From NCBI GenBank assembly GCA_013290025.1, contig JABCYV010000003.1, forward strand, positions 1 through 58,331: a stretch of DNA of 58,331 nt, written 5' to 3'. The DNA comes from Acidobacteriota bacterium (GTDB lineage: Bacteria > Acidobacteriota > Terriglobia > Terriglobales > Acidobacteriaceae). Under the pieces are notes generated by a model. It was not told the origin of the DNA. It saw nothing but the letters and a program-made list of their open reading frames with translations, and searched no databases. The first letter of the stretch is position 1; each line of letters starts with the position of its first letter. Of the stretch, positions 32,915 to 49,726 are shown piece by piece. The position numbers and the translations under genes were made by a program.

Positions 32915-33001
32915 GACCCAAGGAAATGACTTCGGTAATTAGAAGTTCCTTACCCCCTGTGCCAATCTTAGGTGAACTTTGTCGCAGCGAGTAGATACCC
33001 A

Positions 33002-34018
33002 ATGTTTAGTAAGTCGCAGCACGCTGTCACGGGCACGATCTTAGTCGCGGACGACCAGGCCTCCAACCGTGAGCTGTTAGAGGAATTGCTAACGGCGGAG
33101 GGATTCAAGGTGGCGAGCGTTTCAAACGGTGCAGCCGCATTAGAGCAGTTGGCCATCGTTCCAATCGACTTAGTGCTGCTTGACGTGATGATGCCCCATC
33201 TCAGCGGCTTTGAGGCTTGTCAGCAAATCAAGTCCAACCCTGAAACTTATTTGATACCGGTGATTCTGATCACCGCCCTGTCCGACAAACAAGATCGCAT
33301 AGAAGGGATTAGATCGGGAGCAGATGACTTCCTGAGCCGTCCCGTAGACCGCTCCGAATTGCTCGCCCGCGTGCGCTCGCTCCTCAAGCTTAAGCTCCGT
33401 ACGGATGAGCTTGAGCGCGCGGAATCAGTGCTCTTTACGCTTGCCCGCAGTATTGAAGGGAAGGATCCTTACACGCACGGTCATTGCGAGCGTTTGGCGG
33501 AGTATTCGGCTTCGTTGGGAGAACATCTCAAACTTTCGGAAGATCAGGTTACTGCTCTCCGCCGCGCTGGCGTAGTTCACGACATCGGGAAAATCGCGAT
33601 ACCTGACTCGATTATCTTGAAGCCAACCAGTCTTTCTCCAGACGAATGGAAACTCATGCGGGAGCATCCGGTCATCGGAGAACGCATTTGCGCACCGTTG
33701 AAGTCCTTTCGCTCAGTACTGCCGATCATTCGTTTCCACCATGAAAGGTTCGACGGGTCGGGATATCCAGATGGGCTTGCGGGAGAAGCCATACCCATTA
33801 CAGCTAGAGTCTTGCAGATCGTGGATGTCTACGATGCGCTAACTACGGTAAGGCCGTATAAGCCCGCCTTCTCCATCACCGACGCGTTGCAGACCATGAA
33901 GACGGAAGTGGCCAACGGATGGTGGGACGCGCACATCTTCAGCCTATTCGAGCAGTTTGTGAGGAGCGGTACAGCTGAGTTCCTGTCGCGTGGCGTGGGA
34001 GCAGGTGGGAATAGGTAG
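33002..34018 (+). CDS. response regulator with HD-GYP c-di-GMP phosphodiesterase domain
   Basis: The product is 338 residues from ATG 33002; a GTG at 32972 is an alternative. The receiver domain (residues about 10-130) has acidic pocket VADDQASN, phosphoacceptor Asp in LVLLDVMMP and Lys-equivalent region FLSRPVD, where Arg replaces the usual conserved Lys. The HD-GYP domain (about 150-320) has VHDIGKIAIPD and HHERFDGSGYPDGL, so the HD and GYP signatures are intact. It is RpfG-like and hydrolyses c-di-GMP after phosphorylation. The odd Arg may affect signalling. It overlaps nothing, and the TonB receptor gene follows by 112 bp. Confidence 0.92.
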   Translation: MFSKSQHAVTGTILVADDQASNRELLEELLTAEGFKVASVSNGAAALEQLAIVPIDLVLLDVMMPHLSGFEACQQIKSNPETYLIPVILITALSDKQDRIEGIRSGADDFLSRPVDRSELLARVRSLLKLKLRTDELERAESVLFTLARSIEGKDPYTHGHCERLAEYSASLGEHLKLSEDQVTALRRAGVVHDIGKIAIPDSIILKPTSLSPDEWKLMREHPVIGERICAPLKSFRSVLPIIRFHHERFDGSGYPDGLAGEAIPITARVLQIVDVYDALTTVRPYKPAFSITDALQTMKTEVANGWWDAHIFSLFEQFVRSGTAEFLSRGVGAGGNR

Positions 34019-34130: not shown

Positions 34131-36137
34131 ATGACGTTTGTCGAACGAGCTTTCCTCATTGTCTTGGTCTATCTTGCGGGATTGGTCAACAATAGCGTTG
34201 CTGAGGCTGCACAAAATCAGGTGAGCGGCGGGCCCCTGAAGCAATTGAGTCTCGCTGAACTCGGCAATGTCGAAGTGACGACGGCCTCTAAGGAGCCAGA
34301 AAAGATCTCGAAGACCCCAGCAGCAATTTTCGTCCTCACTCAGGATGACATTCGCCGTTCCGGGGCCACCAGCATTCCGGATGTACTGCGTCTAGTCCCG
34401 GGAGTGGAGGTAGCACGAATTAGCTCCAATCAGTGGTCTGTGAACATTCGCGGACTTGGGAGTGGTTTTTCAAAATCAGTCTTGGTGTTGATTGACGGTC
34501 GAAGCGTCTATACACCGCTCTACGCGGGCGTGTACTGGGATGTACAGAATGTGTTGCTGGAAGATGTCGAGCGCATCGAAGTGATTCGGGGCCCTGGGGG
34601 AACGATCTGGGGATCGAACGCCGTCAATGGCGTGATCAACATTATTACTAAAAATGCCAGGGATACTCACGGGACCTACGCATCCACCAGGGTCGGAAAT
34701 GTCGATCAAAACCAAGGAGGAGTTCGCTACGGCGGGGCGCATGGAAACAATCTTAGCTATCGCGCGTACGCCCTGGGATTTGGCCAAACCCCGGAATTCC
34801 ATCCTGGCGGCGGCAACTACGACGCTTGGCAGCTAGGACAGGCGGGTTTCCGAACGGACTCCCAACTGACGGACCACGATACCCTCACAGTTCAGGGCGA
34901 TCTTTATAAAGGCAATGTTGGGCAGCAGGTGGCCATCGTGTCTTACTCGCCACCCGCTCAACGTAACATAAATGCAACGGAAGACGTATCAGGCGGCAAT
35001 TTCTTGGGGCGCTGGCGCCATCAATTCAGCAATACGTCTGACGTCCAAGTCCAGGCTTATTATGACCGGACATATCGTATCGGACCGCAACTGGGAGAAA
35101 CTCGCAACACGTTTGACATTGACTTAATTCACCACTTCGTCCTCAAAGAGCGCAATGGAGTTATCTGGGGGCTTGGAGCTCGATGGAGTCCTAGCGATTT
35201 CATACAAACTGTCGCTACGATCAACTTCCTGCCGCATCATCAAGACGACAAAATTTACAGTGCGTTCGTGCAAGACCAGATCGCAATCGTACAAAATAAA
35301 CTCTGGTTGACCTTGGGGTCGAAGTTCGAACACAACATCTTCACTGGTTGGGAGACCGAACCCAGCGGTCGTGTGTTGTGGACTCCGACCTCGCATCAGA
35401 CACTATGGGCGGCCGTGACACGCGCAGTACGCACACCTTCCCGTATTGATGAGGACTTGCAACTGACCGGGCTGGTACAGGCAAACCCTCCAGTGTTTGC
35501 TTGTATTTGCGACAATCGCCAAGTCGCGTCGGAAACGCTGCTCGGCTACGAAGCCGGATATCGTAAGCTGGTGACATCTAGCTTTTACGTGGACGTTGCA
35601 GCCTTTCATAACAAGTACAACGACCTCGTTAGTTACGGGGACGAATCGATTTCGACCGTGGCCTCGCCGCCTCCGCCATACACTCTTATTTCACTCCGGG
35701 CTGTCAACGGCATTATGGGAGCCACCAACGGGGGCGAAATCTCGCCGGACTGGAAAGTGACCCACTGGATGGATTTCAAGGCCACATATTCCTATGTGAG
35801 CCTGAATTTTGAGGATAAGGCGACCCACACGAAAACCAGTCAGGTGTCTTCATATGAGGGATCGAGCCCGCACAATGAGGCAACTGCACAGATTCTGTTC
35901 CACTTGCGCAAAGGGCTTGAGTTTGATCCCACTTACCGCTATGTCGGCGCTCTGCCAGCCCTAGGTGTGAATGCTTATCACACGGCAGACGCTCGCCTGG
36001 GTTGGCACTTTGCCAAGGAGTTTGAGCTGTCCGTGACTGGACAAAATTTGTTCCAGCCCCGTCATGCCGAGTTCGGTCCCGTGCTCGTCGAGAGGAGCGC
36101 GTACGCGCAGATCACCTGGAGACGGGCGGCGGATTGA
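34131..36137 (+). CDS. TonB-dependent outer-membrane receptor
   Basis: The product is 668 residues from ATG 34131, with a signal peptide (MTFVERAFLIVLVYLAGLVN, then NSVAEAA); longer in-frame starts back to 33990 overlap the HD-GYP gene. The plug domain is evident: LSLAELGNVEVTTASKEPEK, AAIFVLTQDDIRRSGATSIP, PGVEVARISSNQWSVNIRGL and EVIRGPGGTIWGSNAVNGVI. The 22-strand barrel ends in YAQITWRRAAD, close to but not ending in an aromatic residue. Members of this subgroup often stand next to YfiR-family genes and two-component kinases, as here. The ligand is unknown. The next gene's ATG is 5 bp after the stop. Confidence 0.93.
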   Translation: MTFVERAFLIVLVYLAGLVNNSVAEAAQNQVSGGPLKQLSLAELGNVEVTTASKEPEKISKTPAAIFVLTQDDIRRSGATSIPDVLRLVPGVEVARISSNQWSVNIRGLGSGFSKSVLVLIDGRSVYTPLYAGVYWDVQNVLLEDVERIEVIRGPGGTIWGSNAVNGVINIITKNARDTHGTYASTRVGNVDQNQGGVRYGGAHGNNLSYRAYALGFGQTPEFHPGGGNYDAWQLGQAGFRTDSQLTDHDTLTVQGDLYKGNVGQQVAIVSYSPPAQRNINATEDVSGGNFLGRWRHQFSNTSDVQVQAYYDRTYRIGPQLGETRNTFDIDLIHHFVLKERNGVIWGLGARWSPSDFIQTVATINFLPHHQDDKIYSAFVQDQIAIVQNKLWLTLGSKFEHNIFTGWETEPSGRVLWTPTSHQTLWAAVTRAVRTPSRIDEDLQLTGLVQANPPVFACICDNRQVASETLLGYEAGYRKLVTSSFYVDVAAFHNKYNDLVSYGDESISTVASPPPPYTLISLRAVNGIMGATNGGEISPDWKVTHWMDFKATYSYVSLNFEDKATHTKTSQVSSYEGSSPHNEATAQILFHLRKGLEFDPTYRYVGALPALGVNAYHTADARLGWHFAKEFELSVTGQNLFQPRHAEFGPVLVERSAYAQITWRRAAD

Positions 36138-36142
36138 TATCA

Positions 36143-36763
36143 ATGAAATTCCTTCGCGGCACAAACTCCGACCGGCGCGTTCCCCGTGGTGACACGACTT
36201 CGCCTGCTCTTAGCCTCCGTCCGTTGCTTCTAGCTATCGTCATAGCATGTGTATTGCTTGCCAGTCCTTCTCTGCAAGCGCAGAATCCGAGACCCGCTGA
36301 CTATGAAGTGAAAGCCGCCTACCTCTATAACTTTGGCCGATTCGTCGAATGGCCTGGGAAGGTTGGGGCAGCTCAAGGCGGCTTTTTTACTGTGTGTGTT
36401 CTCGGGCAAGATCCCTTCGGCCCCAGCCTCGACGCCACGCTTGCAGGTGAAACGATAGGCGGCAAGACCATAATCGCCAAACGAATTTCCAGTGCGGAGG
36501 AGTCGGGCAATTGCCAGATTCTTTTTCTGAGTCTTACGGACGACAGCCGTCTCAACAAAATTGTCGCCGACCTCGACAAGAAAGCTGTTTTGACCGTCAG
36601 CGATATGCCGCAGTTCGTTAAGCATGGCGGCATGATCCAGTTTGTCCTGGAAGGGAAGAAAGTTCGCTTCGAGGTCAACCTGACCGCGACCCAGCATGCG
36701 GGTCTGACGCTCAGCTCTGAGCTGCTCAAGGTAGCGACCGCCGTCAAAAGGGATAGAGATTGA
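36143..36763 (+). CDS. YfiR-family (DUF4154) periplasmic protein
   Basis: The 206-residue protein has an N-terminal hydrophobic export segment ([20 protein letters not shown]). The DUF4154 domain has [59 protein letters not shown] and [20 protein letters not shown]. In Pseudomonas aeruginosa YfiR is the periplasmic repressor of the diguanylate cyclase YfiN, relieved by YfiB. Here the partner encoded next is a CHASE8 hybrid histidine kinase rather than a cyclase. The gene sits 5 bp after the TonB receptor gene and its stop is 5 bp before the kinase ATG, so the three are one operon. Confidence 0.9.
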
Positions 36764-36768
36764 CACAC

Positions 36769-39105
36769 ATGTTCAACGTCCAAAACTATTCAATCTCTAA
36801 GAAACTCACCTGGATGAACATGCTGGTGAGTGCGGCGGCCCTGCTGTTGGCCTGTGGCGGCTTTTGTGCTTACGACCTGTACAGCTTTCGTGACGCCCTG
36901 GTGCGCAACGTCTCGATCCAAGCTCAGATCATCGGAGACAATACCGCCTCGGCGCTCCTGTTTGACGATCCACATTCCGCGGAGAAGACCTTGTCAGCAT
37001 TGGATGCCAACCGGCATCTCATGTACGCCCAGATTTACGCCCACGACGGCCAGCCTTTCGCGGCGTACTGGCGCGAGCGCGCGGGCCAGACTCTGCCCCC
37101 GCCGGTTATTCCCTCAGGTCAAACCCAGATCCACTGGTTCCGGGGCGGTCATCTGGGGTTGGCGCGCTCGATCATCTTCGAGGGCAAACCAAGGGGAATT
37201 GTGTACATCAGATCCGACTTGGGAGCGATGAACGACCGGCTGAAGAGCTACGCGGTAATCATCGTGGTCGTATTTCTGGCCTCGCTGGTGGTTGCCCTAT
37301 TGATTTCAAGAATATCGCAGCGTGTTATTTCCGAACCCGTGATGCAGTTGGCGCAGACTGTCCGAATCGTGTCCCAGGAGAAGAACTATTCGATCCGCGC
37401 AGCCACGACCACAAATCGCGACGAAGTGTCAACCCTCATCGAATCGGTAAACGAGATGTTGGAGCAGATTCAGCAGCGTGATAGCGCCCTGGGAAGAGCT
37501 CACGACGAACTGGAGCGACGGGTTCAGGAACGCACGACCCAACTTGCTGTTGCCAACAAAGAACTGGATCTCCGTAACCGCGAAGTCGAGCGCGCAACTC
37601 AAATGAAGAGCAAGTTTCTGGCCAGCATGAGCCATGAATTACGGACTCCACTGAATGCCATTGTGGGCTTTTCGGATCTGCTGGGTGACGAGATTCCAGG
37701 CCAGCTTAACGACAAGCAAAAGCGCTTTGTCAACCACATCAAGCAGGGGGCTGGGCATCTGTTGCAGTTGATCAACGACATTCTGGATCTATCGAAGATC
37801 GAGGCCGGACAACTTGAACTCCGATGTGAGCAGTTCCTGGTGAAGGATGCTTTGCCCGAGGTTCTTTCGACAATCCGTCCGTTAGCAATGGCAAAGGACA
37901 TTCAGGTTCAACAAAAGTTGAGGACGGATCAATCCGTCTACGCTGATCGGGTCCGCTTTAAACAAATCCTATACAACTTACTAAGCAATGCGGTGAAATT
38001 CACCCCCAAAGGCGGCCGCATTGAGGTCGATTGCTTTGAAAGCGAGAATCAAGTCTGCCTATCTGTAACCGATACCGGCGTAGGCATCCGTCAGGAGGAC
38101 CAGAAAGTTGTCTTCGAGGAGTTCCGGCAAGTTGAAGGTAGCCGACATGAGGTAAACGAAGGCACCGGCCTTGGGCTTGCCATTACGAAGCGCCTAGTCG
38201 AGCAACAAGGCGGAAAGATCTCACTGACGAGCGAACCCGGAAAAGGCAGCCGGTTTACGTTTACCCTTCCCGTAGGCAACACATCCAGAACAGAACCCAC
38301 GAAGCCTCATAGTCTCCTTGCCACGAGCAGTGGAAGTTTCGGGAAACCGCTCATTCTTGTCGTGGACGACGAGGCTTCTGCTAGGGAGCTCTTAGTCAGT
38401 TATTTAAATCAGGAATATCGCATTGCTATCGCCGAGTCGGGATCCGAAGCTGTCAACAAAGCTCACGAGTTACGTCCCGACGCCATCACTTTAGATTTGT
38501 CAATGCCCGGGAAGAGCGGCTTCGAAGCACTGGTTACGCTCAAAAAAGATCCCGAGACAACAAACATACCGATTATTATCGTTTCCATCGTCGACCAAAA
38601 GAATCTAGGTTTTGCCTTGGGTGCCGCGGACTACCTGATCAAGCCAATTCGCAAGCCGGTCCTCCTGGAGACGATTCGGAAGCATTTGCCCCTTCTGAGC
38701 AACGATGACTCTGAGATTCTGTTGGTCGACGATGATCCGAGAACGCTCGAAATGTTGGAAGAGACCCTGCGGTCGGCCGGCTACGAAACTCAAAGTGTGC
38801 AAAGCGGCGCGCGAGCCTTGGAAGTGCTTTCTTCCAAGCTCGTCAGCGCAGTCTTGCTCGATCTGCTTATGCCAGGCATGGACGGTTTTGAGGTCATCCG
38901 ACACGTACGGCAAGAAGCTACTCTGAAAAAATTGCCAATTTTTGTCATGACAGGTAAGAGCCTTACACCGGGAGAGTCGTCTCTTCTCGCTCGCGACACT
39001 CAGGCGTTGCTGCAGAAAAGCGGTTCCTGGCAGCAACAGCTCATTGTCGAACTGGCAAGAGTTTTTCAGCGCCGTGCGCTGGCGAAGCCCGCAGGACAGC
39101 CATGA
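36769..39105 (+). CDS. CHASE8-HAMP hybrid sensor histidine kinase with two receivers
   Basis: The 778-residue protein has a first membrane segment ([20 protein letters not shown]) and a periplasmic CHASE8-type domain (about 40-155, with [20 protein letters not shown]). A second membrane segment ([20 protein letters not shown]), HAMP and a coiled coil follow. The HisKA domain carries SHELRTPLN (His289). The HATPase domain has N box [17 protein letters not shown] and GTGLGLAI. Two receivers follow, with Asp576 (TLDLSMPG) and Asp698 (LLDLLMPG). CHASE8 is the periplasmic sensor type of YfiN, so YfiR encoded just upstream probably regulates this kinase. The final TGA overlaps the ATG of a broken receiver gene (ATGA at 39102-39105). 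Confidence 0.93.
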
Positions 39106-39215
39106 GCAGAATTCTCATTGCCGAGGACAATGTTGTTAAGCGGGAACTACCTCCTCTTTGCGCGCGTCGCATCCGAGATTCTAGAAATCGGGTAACAATT
39201 CTCCAGAGCAATTGA
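39102..39215 (+). pseudogene. truncated receiver-domain gene, 37 codons left
   Basis: The ATG overlaps the kinase stop as ATGA. It encodes [16 protein letters not shown], then unrelated residues and a stop at 39213-39215. The first 16 codons closely match the start of the single-domain receiver at 44617 (MTKVLIAEDNAVNREL), both in protein and at many DNA positions. The rest of the receiver domain is missing. It therefore seems to be the stump of a response regulator once coupled to the hybrid kinase. Confidence 0.65.
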
Positions 39216-39365: not shown

Positions 39366-40295
39366 ATGGATCCATCTCCGCCCAAACTGAAGGTCCTGGT
39401 AGCGGATGATTCTCCCGTATATCGCAAACTGGTCGAGCAGTCCCTTGTGCACGACCACTACGCCGTCCTACTGGCAAAGAATGGCCAGCAGGCAATGGAT
39501 CTGTTTGCCAAACACCAGCCTGCCCTAGTGATAACCGACTGGACCATGCCTGACATTAGTGGCGTCGAACTCTGCCAGCGCATACGTCGCGACTACCAAC
39601 AGTTCTACGCCTATATCATTCTGCTTACCGCGAACACCGACAAAAAAGAAGTGATCGAAGGCCTCGCCTCTGGAGCCGATGACTATTTGACCAAGCCTTT
39701 CCATCCTGGCGAACTACAAGCGCGCGTGAGAGTGGGCCGCCGCATCGCTGATCTCCACCATCAATTGCAGGCCAAAAATCATCAGCTACAAGAAATGGCC
39801 CTCACCGACCCGCTCACCGGCCTGCCCAACCGGCGAGCGATTGATGTTTGGGCACCTCGCCAATTAAGCGCAGCTACCCGCCACGGGTTTCCCATCTGGG
39901 CGATCGTTGCCGATCTGGATCATTTCAAGAGCATCAACGACTCCTACGGACACGATACCGGCGACTCTGTGCTCAAGACCTTTGCCGAAGTTCTCAAGAG
40001 CAACACCCGCCAGTCAAACATCTGCGCCCGTGTGGGGGGCGAGGAATTCCTTGTGGTCCTTACCCATGTACAAAAGGAGAATGTCAAAGTTGCCATCGAA
40101 CGCATCCGTGAAGAGTTTGAGATCCAGAAGTTCACCGTTGCTGGTCACACGTTCTGCGTTACCGCCAGCTTCGGAATCGCCGGCTTACAGGCAACGGCGC
40201 CCTCGGATTTCAGCGACCTGGTGAGTCGCGCAGACGCGGCCTTGTACACGGCAAAGCACAAAGGGCGTAATCGCATCGAATTCGCGATGGAATAG
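39366..40295 (+). CDS. response regulator with GGDEF diguanylate cyclase domain
   Basis: The 309-residue protein (MDPSPPKLKVLVADDSPVYR) has a receiver at residues 8-125 with VADDSP, phosphoacceptor Asp in LVITDWTMPD and YLTKPF. The GGDEF domain at about 140-305 has LTDPLTGLPNRRAID, ADLDHFKSINDSYGHDTGD and the active site GGEEF at residues 224-228. The inhibitory I-site (RxxD five residues before GGEEF) reads RQSN, so product feedback inhibition is probably weak or lost. It is PleD/WspR-like and makes c-di-GMP upon phosphorylation. It stands 150 bp after the receiver stump and could be the current output partner of the hybrid kinase; this is inference. Confidence 0.93.
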   Translation: MDPSPPKLKVLVADDSPVYRKLVEQSLVHDHYAVLLAKNGQQAMDLFAKHQPALVITDWTMPDISGVELCQRIRRDYQQFYAYIILLTANTDKKEVIEGLASGADDYLTKPFHPGELQARVRVGRRIADLHHQLQAKNHQLQEMALTDPLTGLPNRRAIDVWAPRQLSAATRHGFPIWAIVADLDHFKSINDSYGHDTGDSVLKTFAEVLKSNTRQSNICARVGGEEFLVVLTHVQKENVKVAIERIREEFEIQKFTVAGHTFCVTASFGIAGLQATAPSDFSDLVSRADAALYTAKHKGRNRIEFAME

Positions 40296-40714: not shown

Positions 40715-43243
40715 GTGAGAGTCTTGAATTGTGACACAAATCGGGTTGAGCGTGTTCGACTTGTGGGTAGTGCGACGGTGCAGACCCCGGGGGGAGCTGC
40801 GGAGGTTGTTGAGCTGACCACTCGCGTCACTGACAGGAGCCAATCAGGCACTGAGATTCTGTTCATGCATCCGCGAGGCCTGATCATTCGCCATGCTGTT
40901 GTTTCCCTCTTGTTCGTGTTGCTATACCTTTTGCTGGACCGGCCCGAAGTCATTTTCCTTTCTCGCATTGGATTCGTCGCTTGGTACCCCGCCATCGGTC
41001 TGGTTATGGCGCTCTTGTTGGGCATTAGTCCTTGGTACGCGCTTCCGGCCTGTTTTTCCGTAGCGCTTGCTGGCCGCGTTATCTACGCCCAACCAGTCAT
41101 GTCTTTCAGCAACACCATCGATGCCGTGGGAATTGGGGTGTGTTATGGGGTGGCGGCATACGTGTTGCGCAGTCCGCTGCAAATCGATCTCGGGCTGCGT
41201 CGCCGACGGGACGTTGTTCGCTACGTGTTGGTGAGTGCTACGGCAGCTGCAGCAGCCACGATCATTGGAGTTGCATGCCTGATCGCAGATCACAGCATTA
41301 CCCCTGGTGAATACAAGTCTTCCGCGTTAGGATGGTTTTTGGGTGACGCCATCGGGTTGGTCGGCATCGCACCATTTCTTCTCGTCCATGTATTGCCGCA
41401 TATTCGTAATTGGCTCTCTCCAACGCCCTCCGCTGTGCTCCACAGAACCCGCGCGCGTTCCCCTGGAACAACCTTCACTCTTCGGGCGCTTGCAGAAAGT
41501 TGTGGCCAAAGTCTGACGATATTATTTGTCCTCTGGGTGATGTTCGGAACCAAGGACGGGCGCTACGATCATTTTTATCTGTGTTTCATTCCGATCATCT
41601 GGATTGCGATGTGTCACGGAGTCAGGCGCGTTGTTACCGGCCTGCTGGCGCTAAATTTTGGAATCGTAATCGCAATGCATTTGTTCCCCCCAACCCCAGT
41701 CCTGTTCGCCAAAGTCGCCCTGCTCATGCTGGTGCTCTCTGCGGTAGGACTCATCGTGGGATCCGAAGTTAGCGAGCGACACCGATTGGCAATTGATCTG
41801 AATGAACAAACCATCTATTTGGACTCGCTGATACAAAATAGTCCCCTAGGGATTGTCGTTCTTAATCGGCACGGCTGCGTCGAACTGGCAAATTCGGCTT
41901 TCGAGAAACTCTTCCAGTGTGACCGGCACGAACTCGCCGCGGCTGATATTGGGAGCACGGGGATCGACGATGGGGTCACGGACTCCGCGCAATTGATTCC
42001 ACAGATCTTCGACGGCAACGCGTTGCACAAGACGGTGCGACAACGACGCAAAGACGGGCGAATTCTAGACCTGGCTCTGCATGGCGTGCCACTACTTTTA
42101 AACAGTGAGGTCCGGGGCGCATACTTGATCTACGAGGACATTTCCGAACAAATCAGGGCGAACGAAGTACAACGGCAACACGCCGAATCATTGAACCGGT
42201 TAGTGAAGGAGTTGAAACTCCACACAGAACAAATGACCACACTGAACGAAATGGGGTCTCTGCTGGAGTGTAGCGGGACTGTGCCGGAGGCCTGCACCGT
42301 TGTCGCTAGGTCGCTGCAGAGGCTTTTTCCCGAGGCCCCTTCCGGAGCACTCTATTTGTTCAAGCCCTCACGAAACCTCCTCGAAGCAGTACTTCGCTGG
42401 GGCACCATGGGCTGTGCCTCGGTGCCGACATTCTCGCCCGACGACTGCTGGTCCCTACGCCGTGGCCAGCCTCATTGGAGTGAGCGTCCGAGAGGTGGCG
42501 TCTCGTGCCAGCATTTGGCGGAGAGATCGACTGCCGATTGTTTATGTGTGCCGATGGTTGCACAGGGGAATACGCTGGGCGTTTTGCATCTCGAGTTCGA
42601 GAGCACAGCGCAGCTCGGATACGAGTCTGTCACGGAGAGTTCTCGGGACTCTCATCAGCGACTGGCGATCAATGCGGCCTCGCAGATCGCTCTTTCCCTG
42701 GCCAGCCTGCAGCTGCGCCAAACCCTCCGTGAGCAGTCGATTCGTGATCCGCTGACTCGGCTATTCAACCGGCGCTTCCTCGAGGAATCGCTCGAAAGAG
42801 AACTGCAACTTGCTAGCCGCAAAAAACAGGTGATAGCCATTCTTTTCCTCGACCTCGACCACTTCAAGAGATTCAACGATGCTTTCGGCCATGACGCAGG
42901 AGACCTGGTGCTCCAGTCCCTTGCAGATCTTTTTCGCTCTTTCTTTCGTGCCACGGATATATGCTGCCGCTATGGCGGCGAGGAGTTCGCCATTATCCTG
43001 CCTGAATCATCCTCCCAGGATGCGGTCATCCGTGCGGACGCGCTGCGCTCCGAGGTCAAGAGCCTACGGTTGCAGCATAAGAAGCAGACGCTTGGGCCGC
43101 TGACGCTCTCGGTTGGTGTAGCTGCGTTTCCTGAGCATGGCTTAACCGCCGACGAGTTGCTCAAAATTGCGGACCAATGCCTCTATGAATCCAAATCGCG
43201 CGGCCGGGACGTTGTGACCGTGGCTTTGCCACAAAACGCATGA
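40715..43243 (+). CDS. MASE1-PAS-GAF-GGDEF membrane diguanylate cyclase
   Basis: The product is 842 residues from a GTG at 40715 (AGGT 6 bp upstream); ATG 40865 (792 aa) starts closer to the first membrane helix and is equally plausible. An N-terminal MASE1-type region of about eight helices is followed by a PAS domain (LDSLIQNSPLGIVVLNRHGC, about 368-480). Then come a linker coiled coil, a GAF-like domain (about 505-655) and GGDEF (about 675-835) with DPLTRLFNRRFLEESL, LDLDHFKRFNDAFGHDAGD and active-site GGEEF. An intact RATD I-site lies five residues before it. It is expected to synthesise c-di-GMP with product inhibition, in response to a membrane-sensed signal. Confidence 0.92.
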   Translation: MRVLNCDTNRVERVRLVGSATVQTPGGAAEVVELTTRVTDRSQSGTEILFMHPRGLIIRHAVVSLLFVLLYLLLDRPEVIFLSRIGFVAWYPAIGLVMALLLGISPWYALPACFSVALAGRVIYAQPVMSFSNTIDAVGIGVCYGVAAYVLRSPLQIDLGLRRRRDVVRYVLVSATAAAAATIIGVACLIADHSITPGEYKSSALGWFLGDAIGLVGIAPFLLVHVLPHIRNWLSPTPSAVLHRTRARSPGTTFTLRALAESCGQSLTILFVLWVMFGTKDGRYDHFYLCFIPIIWIAMCHGVRRVVTGLLALNFGIVIAMHLFPPTPVLFAKVALLMLVLSAVGLIVGSEVSERHRLAIDLNEQTIYLDSLIQNSPLGIVVLNRHGCVELANSAFEKLFQCDRHELAAADIGSTGIDDGVTDSAQLIPQIFDGNALHKTVRQRRKDGRILDLALHGVPLLLNSEVRGAYLIYEDISEQIRANEVQRQHAESLNRLVKELKLHTEQMTTLNEMGSLLECSGTVPEACTVVARSLQRLFPEAPSGALYLFKPSRNLLEAVLRWGTMGCASVPTFSPDDCWSLRRGQPHWSERPRGGVSCQHLAERSTADCLCVPMVAQGNTLGVLHLEFESTAQLGYESVTESSRDSHQRLAINAASQIALSLASLQLRQTLREQSIRDPLTRLFNRRFLEESLERELQLASRKKQVIAILFLDLDHFKRFNDAFGHDAGDLVLQSLADLFRSFFRATDICCRYGGEEFAIILPESSSQDAVIRADALRSEVKSLRLQHKKQTLGPLTLSVGVAAFPEHGLTADELLKIADQCLYESKSRGRDVVTVALPQNA

Positions 43244-43465
43244 CACTTGCTACCTTTTACGAGTCGCAGCTGGCAGTCGGTTGTAGACCGCCGACTGGGC
43301 GGCCAGACGGCTTTGCTAAAGCGGCAGTTGTTTGGGTCGCGATCCAGTTTGTGGTCAGCAATTATTCTCCAGCCGCAAACCGGACCTGACGAGGAGTTCG
43401 ACCTGCGATACATCATGGTCGGGTACAGACGGGTTTTTGGAGAGGTTTTAGAAGAGGATAGACGC

Positions 43466-44146
43466 GTGAAACCGCTGAAACTTCTTGTTGTGGAAGATGA
43501 CCCCGCCAGCCTGGAATTAATGGCAGAGGTTTTCACGTCTTTGAAGGCGGAGGTGCGTTCTGTCAGCGACAGCCAGAATGCGGCTGACCTAGTAAATCGG
43601 GAAAGATTCGATGGGATTTTCCTGGACTTGGAGATGCCCAACCTGCATGGTTTCGATCTGGCACGCCGAATACGCGAGTCCTCGTGGAATAAGTCCACGC
43701 CGATTACCATCGTGACTGGGCGGGATGAGAGAGACACGATGAAACAGGCGTTCTCGATCGGAGCCACCTTCTTCCTTCAGAAACCCGTCGATAGACAAAG
43801 ACTGAGCATGTTGTTCCGCACTGTGCGTGGAGGAATGTTGGAGAATCGACGCCGATACGCAAGAGTTCCCATGCAAACTAATGTCATTTGCACAGTGGGT
43901 TCTCAAACGCTACGCGGGGTGACCTGGAATCTCAGCCAAGGGGGGATGCAAGTAGAAGCTGGCGGCTTGCAACCCAAGGACACTGTTCGACTATCATTCC
44001 GGTTACCAGCTTCCGGCGTGTCGCTGGAGCCGATGGGTACCGTTGTCTGGACAAAAGAGAATCGGCAAGGAATCCAGTTCACAAACATAAGCTCCCAAAA
44101 TGAGGAGGCGATCCGAAAATTCATAGCCGAGATGGAAAAAGAATAA
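43466..44146 (+). CDS. receiver-PilZ response regulator
   Basis: The product is 226 residues from GTG 43466 (VKPLKLLVVEDDPASLELMA) with GAAGAGG about 8 bp upstream; longer in-frame starts (43415, 43247) give unlikely leaders. The receiver has VVEDDPAS, Asp in GIFLDLEMPN, the conserved Thr in TIVTGRDE and Lys in FLQKPVDR. A C-terminal PilZ domain (about 130-225) has RRRYAR (RxxxR) and NLSQGG (NxSxxG), so c-di-GMP binding is predicted. It joins phosphorelay and c-di-GMP inputs in one protein. The other REC-like/PilZ protein in the island (46125-46805) is also 226 aa. Confidence 0.9.
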   Translation: MKPLKLLVVEDDPASLELMAEVFTSLKAEVRSVSDSQNAADLVNRERFDGIFLDLEMPNLHGFDLARRIRESSWNKSTPITIVTGRDERDTMKQAFSIGATFFLQKPVDRQRLSMLFRTVRGGMLENRRRYARVPMQTNVICTVGSQTLRGVTWNLSQGGMQVEAGGLQPKDTVRLSFRLPASGVSLEPMGTVVWTKENRQGIQFTNISSQNEEAIRKFIAEMEKE

Positions 44147-44221
44147 GGATGGAAATCGAGAATCCGCAACTCTGCTTTGCCAGAGCCGACCGCCGCTATC
44201 TCCCAGGCGCCCGGCTCTCGT

Positions 44222-44617
44222 TCACTTGATTGGGAGGTGGGTTCGATCCTTTCGTTTACCCAAAAGGCGTTCGAGTTCATCCGCGAGGGCACGCGCGTTG
44301 ACCGGCTTCGAGAGGTAGCCATCGAAGCCCGAATTCAGGACGTTCTCCCGGTCACCTTGCATAGCATAAGCGGTAATAGCTAGAATCGGCAGCGCAGCCA
44401 AGCTGGGATTCTCCCGGATCTTGCGCGCGACAGCAAAGCCGTCCAGTACGGGCATGCCGATGTCCAGTAGCAGCATGTCTGGATGAATCTCTTCAATCAT
44501 CCGGAGTGCCTCTTGACCGTCGCAAGCTTCAGTCACGGTATATCCCCGTGCCTCTAGCAACTCGCGGAGCAGTTCCCGGTTAACAGCGTTGTCTTCGGCA
44601 ATGAGTACCTTGGTCAT
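44222..44617 (-). CDS. single-domain response regulator (DivK/CheY-like receiver)
   Basis: The product is 131 residues from ATG 44617 (MTKVLIAEDNAVNRELLREL); an in-frame start at 44728 overlaps the PilZ fragment. It is a full receiver: acidic pair AEDN, phosphoacceptor Asp in MLLLDIGMPVLDGFAVARKI, Thr in LAITAYAMQGD and Lys in YLSKPVNARAL. There is no output domain, so it relays phosphate or acts by protein contact, perhaps with the hybrid kinase at 36769. Its first codons resemble the receiver stump at 39102. Its start overlaps the end of the PilZ fragment ORF by 38 bp. Confidence 0.9.
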   Translation of the reverse strand: MTKVLIAEDNAVNRELLRELLEARGYTVTEACDGQEALRMIEEIHPDMLLLDIGMPVLDGFAVARKIRENPSLAALPILAITAYAMQGDRENVLNSGFDGYLSKPVNARALADELERLLGKRKDRTHLPIK

Positions 44618-45147: not shown

Positions 45148-45984
45148 TCAGTGTTGCTCGGAACTCACCAGATCGTTCTTCAGAACGTCGATTTCGACCC
45201 GTCCCCCGGTGGTGTGCTTGGCCGTCTTTCCGCGGTTGTCAGCCGGACCGTTACCCATGCCCACCATGTAGATGCGGTGAATCGCAATTTGATGATTAAG
45301 CACCAAGTAACGCACCACTGAGTCCGCCATCTTTTGTGAGTTAGTGATTGCGGCGTGGCCCTGGCCAGGGGAATAGCCACGGACTTCAATAACGTAGTTG
45401 CGCTGAGTTTTCAGCGGGGCGGCCATCGCGTCGAGAGCTTCCTTCGCTCTCTTGCTCAGTACAGTCCCGCCGGGTCGGAAATGAATTTCAGTTTGCGCGC
45501 CAGCCTTGTATTGGTCCACGTGGCCCACCACCTGCTCTGCGGTGGAAAGCCGAGTCGTTAGTTCGCTTGCCGCTTGCTTCGCGGCAGTCGTGCGGTCGGT
45601 CGCGTCGAGGGTGTGCTGGTCGGCTTCCTTGGTCTTGGCAGAAGCCAGCTGAATGCCTTGTTGGGCGCTCGCATCCGCCTTTCTGATCATCTTGGTGTTC
45701 GTCGCAGCCGCATCATCCAGTTCGTCAAGACAATTCCGAATGGGCTGGATCTGCCTCTGCACGTCCTTCTTGCGCGTAAGTGCTTGGCGGACGAGATTTG
45801 CGAAGTTGGGCTCTTCCCCGTTCCAGGGGTCGTTGCTGGTTGCAGGCTGCAGCGGCTCCTTGCAGATGGTGTTCGTGCTTTGGGCAGCCGGCTGTGCGTT
45901 TGGATTTGCATTCGTTTGCTGCGCGAACGTGGAAAGGGGAAATACCGTGGACAAGAAGAGCGTTAGTAACGCGTGATTCTTCAT
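45148..45984 (-). CDS. exported protein with OmpA-like peptidoglycan-binding domain
   Basis: The product is 278 residues from ATG 45984, 5 bp after AGGAGGT. The signal peptide is MKNHALLTLFLSTVFPLSTF (cleavage after AQ). A low-complexity Asn/Ala/Gln stretch and a helical coiled-coil-like centre (KADASAQQGIQLASAKTKEA and on) precede an OmpA C-terminal domain: EIHFRPGGTVLSKRAKEALD, YVIEVRGYSPGQGHAAITNS, MADSVVRYLVLNHQIAIHRI and RVEIDVL. The domain usually grips peptidoglycan. In the Yfi system of Pseudomonas, YfiB is an OmpA-type lipoprotein that sequesters YfiR. This protein lacks a lipobox, but it could play that part for the YfiR homologue 9 kb away. That link is speculative. Confidence 0.85.
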   Translation of the reverse strand: MKNHALLTLFLSTVFPLSTFAQQTNANPNAQPAAQSTNTICKEPLQPATSNDPWNGEEPNFANLVRQALTRKKDVQRQIQPIRNCLDELDDAAATNTKMIRKADASAQQGIQLASAKTKEADQHTLDATDRTTAAKQAASELTTRLSTAEQVVGHVDQYKAGAQTEIHFRPGGTVLSKRAKEALDAMAAPLKTQRNYVIEVRGYSPGQGHAAITNSQKMADSVVRYLVLNHQIAIHRIYMVGMGNGPADNRGKTAKHTTGGRVEIDVLKNDLVSSEQH

Positions 45985-47180: not shown

Positions 47181-49169
47181 CTAAGTGCCGGCCGATGCTT
47201 GGTACGCCTTGGCCGAGCTGGAGGAGCTGTTCACTTTCAGCAACAGGGCGGAAATGACGTGCTGATCAGCCGGTTTGCAGAAGTAGTAGCCTTGTGCGAA
47301 GCTGCAATCCAGCGCCTTGAGTTGGTTGACGTGCTCCTCTGTTTCGGTTCCTTCTGCCACGGTCACCAAGCCAAGGCTCTGGGCGAGCATGATGATGATC
47401 TTGACAATCTTGTGACTCTCCGGATCGCTGTCCATATGAGATATGAACGAACGATCGATCTTCAGCGCATCCACCGGGAACTGCTGTAGGCGGCTGAGCG
47501 ACGAATATCCCGTTCCGAAATCATCCACGCTCAGGCGAACTCCAAGTGACTTGAGTTCGGATAGCACGGAAGCTGCTTTCTCCGGATTCGCCATGGCGAT
47601 GGTTTCGGTAATCTCCAACTGCAGATTGTAGGGATCTAGCGCGGTCTGCCTCAGGGTCTCTCCAATCCCTTTCGCCAGGTCGGGATGCGCGAACTCCTTC
47701 GAGGTAATATTCACGCTCATGCTAAGCGGCGGCTCCGCGGGAAATTGCCTCTGCCACGAGCGCAGTTGTTCGCAGGCTTCGCACAGCAGCCATCGATTCA
47801 TGGGAACAATCAGGCCGGTTTCCTCGGCCACCGTAATAAACTCGGCGGGCGAGAGCAAGCGGTTCCCGCGTTGCCAACGGGTCAGCGCTTCAAAACCGGT
47901 AATTCTGCCGGTCGTCAGGGAGATGATCGGTTGGTAGTGGGTTCTGAATTCGCCCAACTCCATGCCCTTACGGAGTTCCGTCTCCAGCTCCAGGCGCCTG
48001 ACCGCGCCCTCATGCATTGCGGTATCGAAGACTTCGCATCGTGCCTTGCCCGCTCGCTTGGCCCGATACATGGCGATGTTAGCGTCCCGCAGCAGATCTT
48101 CAGCATGGGCACAAGCTGCGGTACTCAAGGCAATTCCGACGCTAGCGTTTACTACAATTTCGTATCCCTGGACGGTGAAAGGAACCGCCAGCCTGCTCTG
48201 CAGCCGCTCGGCCACCCGTATGGCATCGCTGGGTGTTCGGATATCCTCCAGAAGTATCGTGTATTCGTCGCCACCGAGCCGGGCCAGCGTGTCATCTTTT
48301 GAGGATTGGCCTAGCAACGGACGTGAGATCGTGTCCACTTCCCGGAGCGAGGCGGTCAACCTCTGGCCGATTTGAACCAGAATGTCGTCCCCGACTTTGT
48401 GTCCTAGGCTGTCGTTAAAAACCTTGAATTCGTCGATATCAATAAACAGGACGGCGAATTTGTAATCTCTATGACGCTTGGAGAGCACTAATGCGCGCTG
48501 CAACCGTTCAAGCAAAAGAGCGCGGTTCGGCAGATTCGTCAGCCCGTCGTGGAAGGCGCTGTGCGCCAGCATCTCTTCCGCGCGTTTGCGCTCGCTGATG
48601 TCGCGGTTCACAATCACTAGCTTTTCGGTTTCCCCTTTCGCGTTTCGGATGGCGCTGGCGGTTGATTCCAGGATGCGCCATGAACCGTCCTTATGGCGCA
48701 TCCGGTATTCCAGCCTCTGTCCCTGGCCCGTGGAACGCGCCTTGCGCGCCGCCTCCAGTACTCCCAGGCGGTCATCGGGATGAATTTGCTCAATGGACGA
48801 GGTGGTCTTCAACTCTTCCACCGAGTACCCGAGGATGTGCTGGTATGCCGGGCTGTTGTAAATCCGGCGGCCGGCGTCATCGACGACTGCAATCATGTCG
48901 GCTGCGTTTTCTGTGATCAGTTGAAAGAGCTCGTCTCGCTCCGCGAGCTGGCGCCGGATTCGCTGTAGCTGCAAGTGCTGATAAAGCGTGTAAATGTCGA
49001 ATAACAATACGACAAGGGCCAATCCGCGGACCCATTCCTTGAGATCGGTCCAATACGTACCCTCGGTTTGCGGGTGCAACTGGAAGTAGGTTAAAGAGAC
49101 GATGCCGAAAGTCAAAACCAGAGTCACTACTACAGCCAGGCCCCATAGCCACCACTCGCGCCCCTCCAT
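47181..49169 (-). CDS. membrane PAS-GGDEF-EAL protein
   Basis: The product is 662 residues from ATG 49169 (MEGREWWLWGLAVVVTLVLT); an in-frame start at 49400 adds 77 unlikely residues. Two N-terminal helices are followed by a PAS/PAC domain (LFQLITENAADMIAVVDDAG to VIVNRDISERKR). GGDEF has active-site GGDEY and SKDD in place of the RxxD I-site, preceded by an insertion-like stretch (SRPLLGQSSKDD). EAL has FEALTRW, VSVDDFGTGYSSLSRL and the usual Glu/Asp ligands. The EAL motifs are intact, so phosphodiesterase activity is likely. Cyclase activity is possible, as GGDEY retains the key residues. It may be the main local sink for c-di-GMP. Confidence 0.93.
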   Translation of the reverse strand: MEGREWWLWGLAVVVTLVLTFGIVSLTYFQLHPQTEGTYWTDLKEWVRGLALVVLLFDIYTLYQHLQLQRIRRQLAERDELFQLITENAADMIAVVDDAGRRIYNSPAYQHILGYSVEELKTTSSIEQIHPDDRLGVLEAARKARSTGQGQRLEYRMRHKDGSWRILESTASAIRNAKGETEKLVIVNRDISERKRAEEMLAHSAFHDGLTNLPNRALLLERLQRALVLSKRHRDYKFAVLFIDIDEFKVFNDSLGHKVGDDILVQIGQRLTASLREVDTISRPLLGQSSKDDTLARLGGDEYTILLEDIRTPSDAIRVAERLQSRLAVPFTVQGYEIVVNASVGIALSTAACAHAEDLLRDANIAMYRAKRAGKARCEVFDTAMHEGAVRRLELETELRKGMELGEFRTHYQPIISLTTGRITGFEALTRWQRGNRLLSPAEFITVAEETGLIVPMNRWLLCEACEQLRSWQRQFPAEPPLSMSVNITSKEFAHPDLAKGIGETLRQTALDPYNLQLEITETIAMANPEKAASVLSELKSLGVRLSVDDFGTGYSSLSRLQQFPVDALKIDRSFISHMDSDPESHKIVKIIIMLAQSLGLVTVAEGTETEEHVNQLKALDCSFAQGYYFCKPADQHVISALLLKVNSSSSSAKAYQASAGT

Positions 49170-49726
49170 CTGCCACCTCTGGATCGGCGCCGCCGTAGGC
49201 CTATTCTCGCTAAAGGTTGGGAATTCTTCCTGAGTCACGCTACCGGTCGCCCCTCCCACAGAAGAGATTCTAGACCGATAAAAACATGTACCAAGGTTAC
49301 CGAAGTTGTTGAGTGAGTAACCCTGAACAACCTTTGAGGCATCTGCAAGACCAACGGCGCCTGCGCTTGCGTACGCTCCTCGCGATGGCAGCCAGAACAC
49401 GGTTGAGAAGCCGGTCCCGTGGCGTTCGCCGCAATAGTATTCAGTCTTACCGCCTTTTGGTTGTGATCGTGCTCGTCCCAGTCGCGAGACACGGACGAAC
49501 GAGCAGACGGGCCAATTATGAGCGCCCAGTTCACGCGAGTAACGTTAGTAATCTTTAGTAATCTTTTGCGAGAACTGACAGCTCCATAGAATCGAGCCAG
49601 TTCCCTACTCACAGGAAATGAACGCGTTCATCGACCCTTCTTATTCTGATGTTTAAAAGGGGCAGAAAAGTCTGGGGGAGCAGGGAAGGAACTGTATTCC
49701 GCAAGCCCGAAGGTGTAGGTGTACCG
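49170..49726. other. divergent intergenic region between the EAL gene and the EPS cluster
   Basis: About 557 bp between divergent genes. It contains an inverted repeat enclosing two 10-bp direct repeats at 49527-49577 (separate entry). No supported ORF. It should hold the promoter of the plus-strand polysaccharide cluster. Confidence 0.5.
49527..49577. promoter_or_regulatory. inverted repeat enclosing tandem 10-bp repeats, upstream of the EPS cluster
   Basis: Outer arms CAGTTCACGCGA (49527-49538) and TTGCGAGAACTG (49566-49577) pair at 10 of 12 positions. Between them TTAGTAATCT occurs twice in direct succession (49545-49554, 49555-49564), an exact one-turn spacing. It lies 149 bp before the wecB start. 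The arrangement suits a regulator-binding region, but it is unproven. Confidence 0.4.

Follow-up and report, generated by a model that had tools for sequence, protein, structure and literature searches.

A TonB-dependent receptor, a YfiR homologue, and a CHASE8 hybrid kinase form a conserved gene cassette in Acidobacteria with a predicted role in trans-envelope signaling

The window analyzed here is a 58,331-nucleotide stretch (positions 1 to 58,331 of contig JABCYV010000003.1, assembly GCA_013290025.1) of an acidobacterial metagenome-assembled genome (MAG) with a completeness of 82%. It contains three contiguous genes on the plus strand that encode a TOL_0244-like TonB-dependent receptor (TBDR) with plug and barrel domains (34131..36137), a YfiR/HmsC-like (DUF4154) periplasmic protein with a signal peptide (36143..36763), and a hybrid histidine kinase (36769..39105) with the architecture TM-CHASE8-TM-HAMP-HisKA-HATPase-REC-REC (TM, transmembrane helix; REC, receiver domain). 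With ATG starts at 36143 for the YfiR gene and 36769 for the kinase gene, both gaps are 5 bp, and the Pfam domains agree with the tight TonB receptor-YfiR-kinase operon described in an earlier note on this DNA. The genome has one YfiR match and one CHASE8 match, and the two adjoin. As detailed below, the trio is a conserved cassette.

In the YfiBNR system of Pseudomonas aeruginosa, the diguanylate cyclase YfiN, a CHASE8 protein, is repressed by YfiR, which is in turn sequestered by YfiB. The YfiR homologue in the window scores 157 bits against PF13689 (gathering cut-off, 24.9) and 148.1 bits against the NCBIfam model for the TOL_0243 YfiR-like protein (NF053591), passing its cut-off of 125. 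It is related to the canonical protein, as a phmmer search with the window YfiR finds the crystal sequences of P. aeruginosa YfiR (PaYfiR; E = 1.9e-6), and it scores 35.7 bits against the canonical YfiR model (NF053586), below the cut-off of 85.

The kinase has Pfam matches to CHASE8 (PF17152; 50.7 bits against a cut-off of 27), HisKA, HATPase, and two REC domains, along with a HAMP match slightly below the cut-off, and it passes the NCBIfam model for YfiR-like-associated sensor kinases (NF053592; 208.7 bits, cut-off 194). An AlphaFold model of its N terminus (predicted local distance difference test [pLDDT], 90) shows a helix continuing from the first TM helix, a short helix, five strands, and then the second TM helix. 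In a structural search, the closest solved sensor folds to the modeled periplasmic domain were those of WalK and CitA, the latter being the template used by Malone et al. to model YfiN (PMC3375315). A sequence profile search of the PDB with the CHASE8 alignment returned weak matches only, mainly to HAMP regions. Because the Pfam profile search finds CHASE8 and the model has a PAS-like fold resembling those of CitA and WalK, the proposal in the earlier note that the periplasmic part is CHASE8-like holds.

The receptor scores 86.9 bits for the Plug domain and 75.1 bits for the barrel. It aligns over its full length with the NCBIfam TOL_0244 model (NF053590) at 619.6 bits, which places it among the best scorers across 149 acidobacterial genomes and 25 bits short of the cut-off of 645, a value passed by receptors from other phyla. 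Pfam finds only the plug and the barrel, with no STN signaling domain at the N terminus. In the same 149 genomes, 16 TBDRs (including one tandem pair, in G121, and one split over two frames) score at least 395 bits against this model, and all but one are at a YfiR locus; the sole exception stops 18 bp short of a contig end. The next two matches below these 16 are truncated or frame-broken, and one of them is in the genome of the window.

Several irregular copies of these genes were also seen. A second TOL_0244-type receptor in the genome of the window (G000:C9 near 42249-43043; L207:6004-7170) breaks off early and leads into fragments of kinase and receiver genes; no YfiR gene accompanies it, and it is apparently a decayed or rearranged copy. 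Locus L063 (G121:C11) has two TOL_0244-type receptors in tandem upstream of a single YfiR-kinase pair, with the kinase in two open frames. In L135, from a close relative, the receptor, YfiR, and kinase genes are each broken into two frames, which more likely reflects MAG sequence errors than decay.

Related loci were selected by YfiR alone, from the sample of 149 acidobacterial genomes and from a species-wide scan with a ten-sequence YfiR alignment, and the counts given for the two sets are for loci with full flanks (n = 37 and n = 54, respectively). Genes in these loci are open frames scored by local profiles seeded from the window proteins, and missing domains may be undercounted. A TBDR is nearby in 29 of the 37 acidobacterial loci and in 50 of the 54 species-wide loci, and CHASE8 adjoins YfiR in 34 and 52 of them, respectively, with CHASE8 carried on a GGDEF protein instead of a kinase in only one and two. 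In 119 related loci binned by distance from YfiR, the share with a same-strand TBDR was 71% for each of the two 1-kb bins immediately upstream, compared with 0 to 5% for positions more than 3 kb upstream or in any downstream bin, which indicates that the adjacency of the two genes is not due to chance. In a further ~10% of loci the TBDR is divergent from YfiR.

By record title (a MAG label, which may in some cases be incorrect), the species-wide loci cover about ten phyla. Among the labels are Acidobacteria, Nitrospirae, Desulfobacterales/Geobacteraceae, Verrucomicrobia, Omnitrophica, and Gammaproteobacteria, as well as Ignavibacteriae, Bacteroidetes, Armatimonadota, Nitrospinia, and Gemmatimonas. 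The recurrence of the trio in so many phyla suggests that it is probably a general route for passing an outside signal into the cell. The pairing of TBDR and YfiR is also retained where the CHASE8 protein carries GGDEF-EAL (L165 and L184) and where no CHASE8 kinase adjoins (L062, L067, L084, L169, and L186), so the receptor tracks YfiR and not the kinase. In four loci (L122, L123, L124, and L127), a YfiR-CHASE8 kinase pair has a GGDEF protein upstream and no TBDR was seen, some of these loci being near contig ends.

Mutagenesis in P. aeruginosa traced YfiR binding to the AAVVF motif in the periplasmic part of YfiN and, on YfiR itself, to a hydrophobic patch around F162 (PMC3375315). Motif alignment identifies ASALLF (36946..36963, plus strand) in the CHASE8 domain of the window kinase as the counterpart of AAVVF, and of the 112 YfiR-linked CHASE8 sequences aligned at this column, 109 share the phenylalanine of this SALLF motif. 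The asparagine of the motif N-[ST]-x-[AS]-A is found in 99 of the 112 YfiR-linked sequences versus three of nine orphan CHASE8 sequences, which are too few to rely on. On the YfiR side (residues counted from the TTG at 36134), F179 corresponds to PaYfiR F162 and is a phenylalanine in 106 of 119 related YfiRs, N182 corresponds to N165 and is conserved in 110 of the 119, and V177 and V200 of the hydrophobic patch are likewise retained in the window. C88 and C127 correspond to PaYfiR C71 and C110, a pair that is redox-sensitive in that protein (PMC4655355); the C127 equivalent occurs in 105 of the 119 sequences and both cysteines occur in 66.

The second cysteine pair of PaYfiR, C145/C152, is absent from the window YfiR and, in the alignment of 119, generally also from related YfiRs. 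The loop carrying this pair is part of the YfiB interface (PMC4655355), and the four YfiR cysteines have been described as strictly conserved among complete YfiBNR systems. Because the F162 patch and SALLF are retained and C145/C152 is missing, the face of YfiR towards an inner-membrane partner appears to be kept, and part of the face towards YfiB appears to be lost.

A hint about the outer-membrane side comes from relatives in the family of the window in which YfiR is fused to a TonB C-terminal domain. One of these is at L084:7432-8298 on the minus strand (DUF4154, 130.5 bits; TonB_C, 59 bits), and full-length relatives of this fusion were found in five more genomes (L221:6644-7522, L222:478-1347, L223:1306-2169, L224:6877-7701 on the minus strand, and L225:6943-7731). 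Thus, there are six fusions in total in the family, including one in the genus of the window, and a TBDR gene immediately precedes four of the six. The usual partners of TonB_C domains are TBDRs, and the fusion of such a domain to YfiR is the best, if only suggestive, hint that YfiR may act at the periplasmic face of the receptor. ExbD is encoded in the genome of the window.

Directly upstream of the TBDR is a gene for a REC-HD-GYP protein (32972..34018, plus strand), a predicted cyclic di-GMP (c-di-GMP) phosphodiesterase with intact HD (VVHDIGK) and GYP (GSGYPDG) motifs. This gene, which was overlooked in the earlier note, is the best-conserved c-di-GMP neighbor: orthologues that are 57 to 80% identical are found in L109 to L113, L116, and L117, always directly upstream of the TBDR, with identities of 73 to 80% within L109 to L113. 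The gene order in these last five loci is REC-HD-GYP, TBDR, YfiR, kinase, and REC, and in four of the five a REC-PilZ gene adjoins one end of the array. The REC-PilZ protein of the window (43466..44146, plus strand; open frame from 43247) is 66 to 82% identical to those of L109, L110, L112, and L113 (about 80% for L110 and L113), and the stand-alone REC protein (44222..44617, minus strand) is 80 to 82% identical to the RECs encoded directly 3' of the kinase in L110 and L113.

The earlier note had pointed to a REC-GGDEF protein (39366..40295, plus strand), the REC-PilZ protein, and the stand-alone REC as candidate phosphotransfer targets of the kinase. The last two are orthologous to operon neighbors in relatives, but the REC-GGDEF gene, encoding a predicted diguanylate cyclase with an intact GGEEF motif, is not conserved in the close relatives, and neither is the MASE1-GGDEF gene of the window. 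In more distant loci, genes similar to the REC-GGDEF gene follow the kinase (L170 and L178), REC-GGDEF adjoins the kinase in L170 and is also found near Nitrospirae kinases, and REC-GGDEF-EAL is encoded directly 3' of the kinase in L080, L082, and L178. The conserved neighboring response regulators have no DNA-binding domain. Overall, the neighborhood looks like a c-di-GMP island in the group to which the window belongs, consistent with the c-di-GMP-rich surroundings noted earlier, and because the neighbors in close relatives are REC-HD-GYP, a lone REC, and REC-PilZ, the output of the cassette is likely to be c-di-GMP.

The reading that we favor, at a probability of roughly 0.6, is a trans-envelope signaling cassette built on a Yfi core, with the TBDR as input, YfiR as go-between, the kinase as transducer, and c-di-GMP as output. 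Periplasmic YfiR would control the hybrid kinase through its CHASE8 domain, and the most likely mechanism, modeled on YfiN, is that it binds the SALLF patch and keeps the kinase inactive. As the outer-membrane partner, the TBDR would occupy the slot filled by YfiB in Pseudomonas; the loss of the cysteine loop that contacts YfiB suggests that the receptor, and not an OmpA-type protein, fills this slot. Receptor occupancy or TonB-driven opening would then alter the amount of free YfiR. Phosphate from the kinase would pass through its two receivers to an unlinked HPt (the kinase itself has no HPt domain, and there are two HPt matches elsewhere in the genome) and from there to the lone REC, REC-HD-GYP, and REC-PilZ proteins, shifting c-di-GMP turnover and readout. 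The direction of this chain, from ligand to TBDR to YfiR to kinase, is our inference. A broader and more tentative proposal, which we would put somewhat below even odds, is that TOL_0244-type TBDRs signal directly via YfiR, with ligand or TonB-driven plug movement capturing or releasing YfiR and so gating the CHASE8 kinase.

Several results weigh against this reading. An AlphaFold co-fold of the YfiR and kinase N terminus of a relative (L120) gave two good domains with no defined docking (pLDDT, 91; predicted template modeling score [pTM], 0.52), although this crude model is weak evidence either way, having been made as a single stop-read-through chain with a short linker, as a monomer where a dimer is expected, from 16 paired rows, and with no pairwise error map. 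TonB_C domains are abundant and occur in many short acidobacterial proteins, which is why the fusions are only suggestive, and the fusion loci observed have no CHASE8 kinase. For the proteins of the window itself, the case for YfiR-TBDR contact is indirect. c-di-GMP enzymes adjoin only 17 of the 54 and three of the 37 full-flank cassettes, and outside the close relatives they are nearby in only a minority of loci.

The receptor could instead be cargo. YfiR and the kinase would then sense another periplasmic cue, such as redox state via C88/C127 or a small molecule, and the TBDR would be a co-expressed uptake system served by the pathway. The position of the TBDR as first gene of the operon, its divergence from YfiR in ~10% of loci, the prevalence of C127 and of the cysteine pair given above, and the redox sensitivity of the PaYfiR counterpart are all consistent with this, and the authors of the work on TOL_0244 read that receptor as serving detection plus uptake (PMC6304351). 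However, the conserved adjoining response regulators are without a DNA-binding domain, and the TBDR-YfiR pairing is retained without the CHASE8 kinase and beside YfiR-TonB_C fusions. We regard the cargo explanation as unlikely.

It is comparably improbable that the cassette has an output other than c-di-GMP, with the lone REC and partners beyond it as the targets of the kinase and the nearby c-di-GMP genes as an unrelated island. Distant loci mostly have only a REC or more kinases downstream, and the low counts of adjoining c-di-GMP enzymes and the lack of conservation of the REC-GGDEF and MASE1-GGDEF genes in close relatives fit this explanation. However, it does not account for the orthologous REC-HD-GYP and REC-PilZ genes kept beside the cassette in close relatives, for the REC-GGDEF-EAL and REC-GGDEF genes next to the kinase in distant loci, or for the CHASE8-GGDEF-EAL proteins that accompany a TBDR and YfiR in L165 and L184.

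A YfiBNR system with the OmpA-type protein at 45148..45984 as YfiB, as the earlier note had suggested, is very improbable: the protein has an OmpA/Pal-type domain, but it is encoded on the minus strand 6 kb away, has by sequence no lipobox cysteine, has no homologue in any related locus and no YfiB model among its NCBIfam matches, and would have to work with a YfiR that is without the C145/C152 loop and far below the canonical cut-off. The operon itself encodes no YfiB OmpA-type lipoprotein.

As in YfiBNR, a YfiR-fold protein is encoded beside a CHASE8-HAMP inner-membrane protein, with the binding motif and hydrophobic patch conserved, but here HisKA-HATPase-REC-REC takes the place of GGDEF, the TBDR takes that of YfiB, and two of the four YfiR cysteines are missing. 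The earlier note had described this as a rewiring from cyclase to phosphorelay. A kinase does replace GGDEF at this locus, but the novelty was overstated: in 2012, Malone et al. described Yfi as a modular core that in distant bacteria often carries GGDEF-EAL, HPT, or a histidine kinase in place of GGDEF, and they aligned the acidobacterium Ellin345 among the distant homologues (PMC3375315). Their kinase-output homologues, such as a Thauera hybrid kinase, similarly combine YfiR with a CHASE8/PAS kinase. That account has no occurrence of “TonB,” whereas a TBDR is part of the cassette in the window. NCBIfam (June 2026) has models for a TOL_0244 TonB-dependent receptor, a TOL_0243 YfiR-like protein, and a YfiR-like-associated kinase, with names that state no function; the three window proteins align with them nearly end to end, YfiR and the kinase above the cut-offs and the TBDR below. 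Since these models, and in part the 2012 work, already cover its parts, the trio is of a recognized kind with a putative function; our literature search found no description of the TBDR-YfiR-kinase trio as a pathway.

In Thalassolituus oleivorans, the TOL_0244 protein is up sevenfold on the n-C28 alkane and resembles OmpS, which, as cited there, was reported as an alkane-detecting TBDR in Alcanivorax dieselolei (PMC6304351). The window receptor is of the TOL_0244-named type, which does not imply that alkanes are its ligand. In FecA-FecR-FecI, an outer-membrane receptor also relays to the inner membrane; unlike FecA, the window TBDR has no STN domain, and YfiR plus a kinase replace the anti-sigma/sigma pair. 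If the receptor is indeed the input, the cassette would be a general trans-envelope relay, found in about ten phyla, for TBDRs without a FecA-type signaling domain, and thus a widespread sigma-factor-independent path from outer-membrane receptors to the cytoplasm. It would also explain the replacement of YfiB in many non-proteobacterial Yfi systems and provide a candidate for the missing step in alkane sensing by TOL_0244/OmpS-like receptors. The TonB domain to which YfiR is fused in some Acidobacteria would then serve to dock it on the receptor, and these fusions are a compact, testable construct.

Finally, the downstream end of the locus has been rearranged. In L110 and L113, the REC gene is on the kinase strand and the REC-PilZ gene faces it tail to tail, whereas in the window the tail-to-tail pair (43247-44617) is inverted, has moved ~5 kb relative to those loci, and is split from the kinase by the REC-GGDEF and MASE1-GGDEF genes. 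A remnant of a REC gene, consisting of its first 16 codons and overlapping the kinase stop (39102..39149, plus strand; tblastn with the downstream RECs of L109 to L113), stays behind at the site where relatives have an intact REC. Because this remnant coexists with a complete displaced REC, a simple inversion cannot account for the extra copy. Farther downstream, a gene for a PAS-GGDEF-EAL protein (47181..49400, minus strand) has orthologues near the cassette in L113 and L121 that are 60 to 67% identical.

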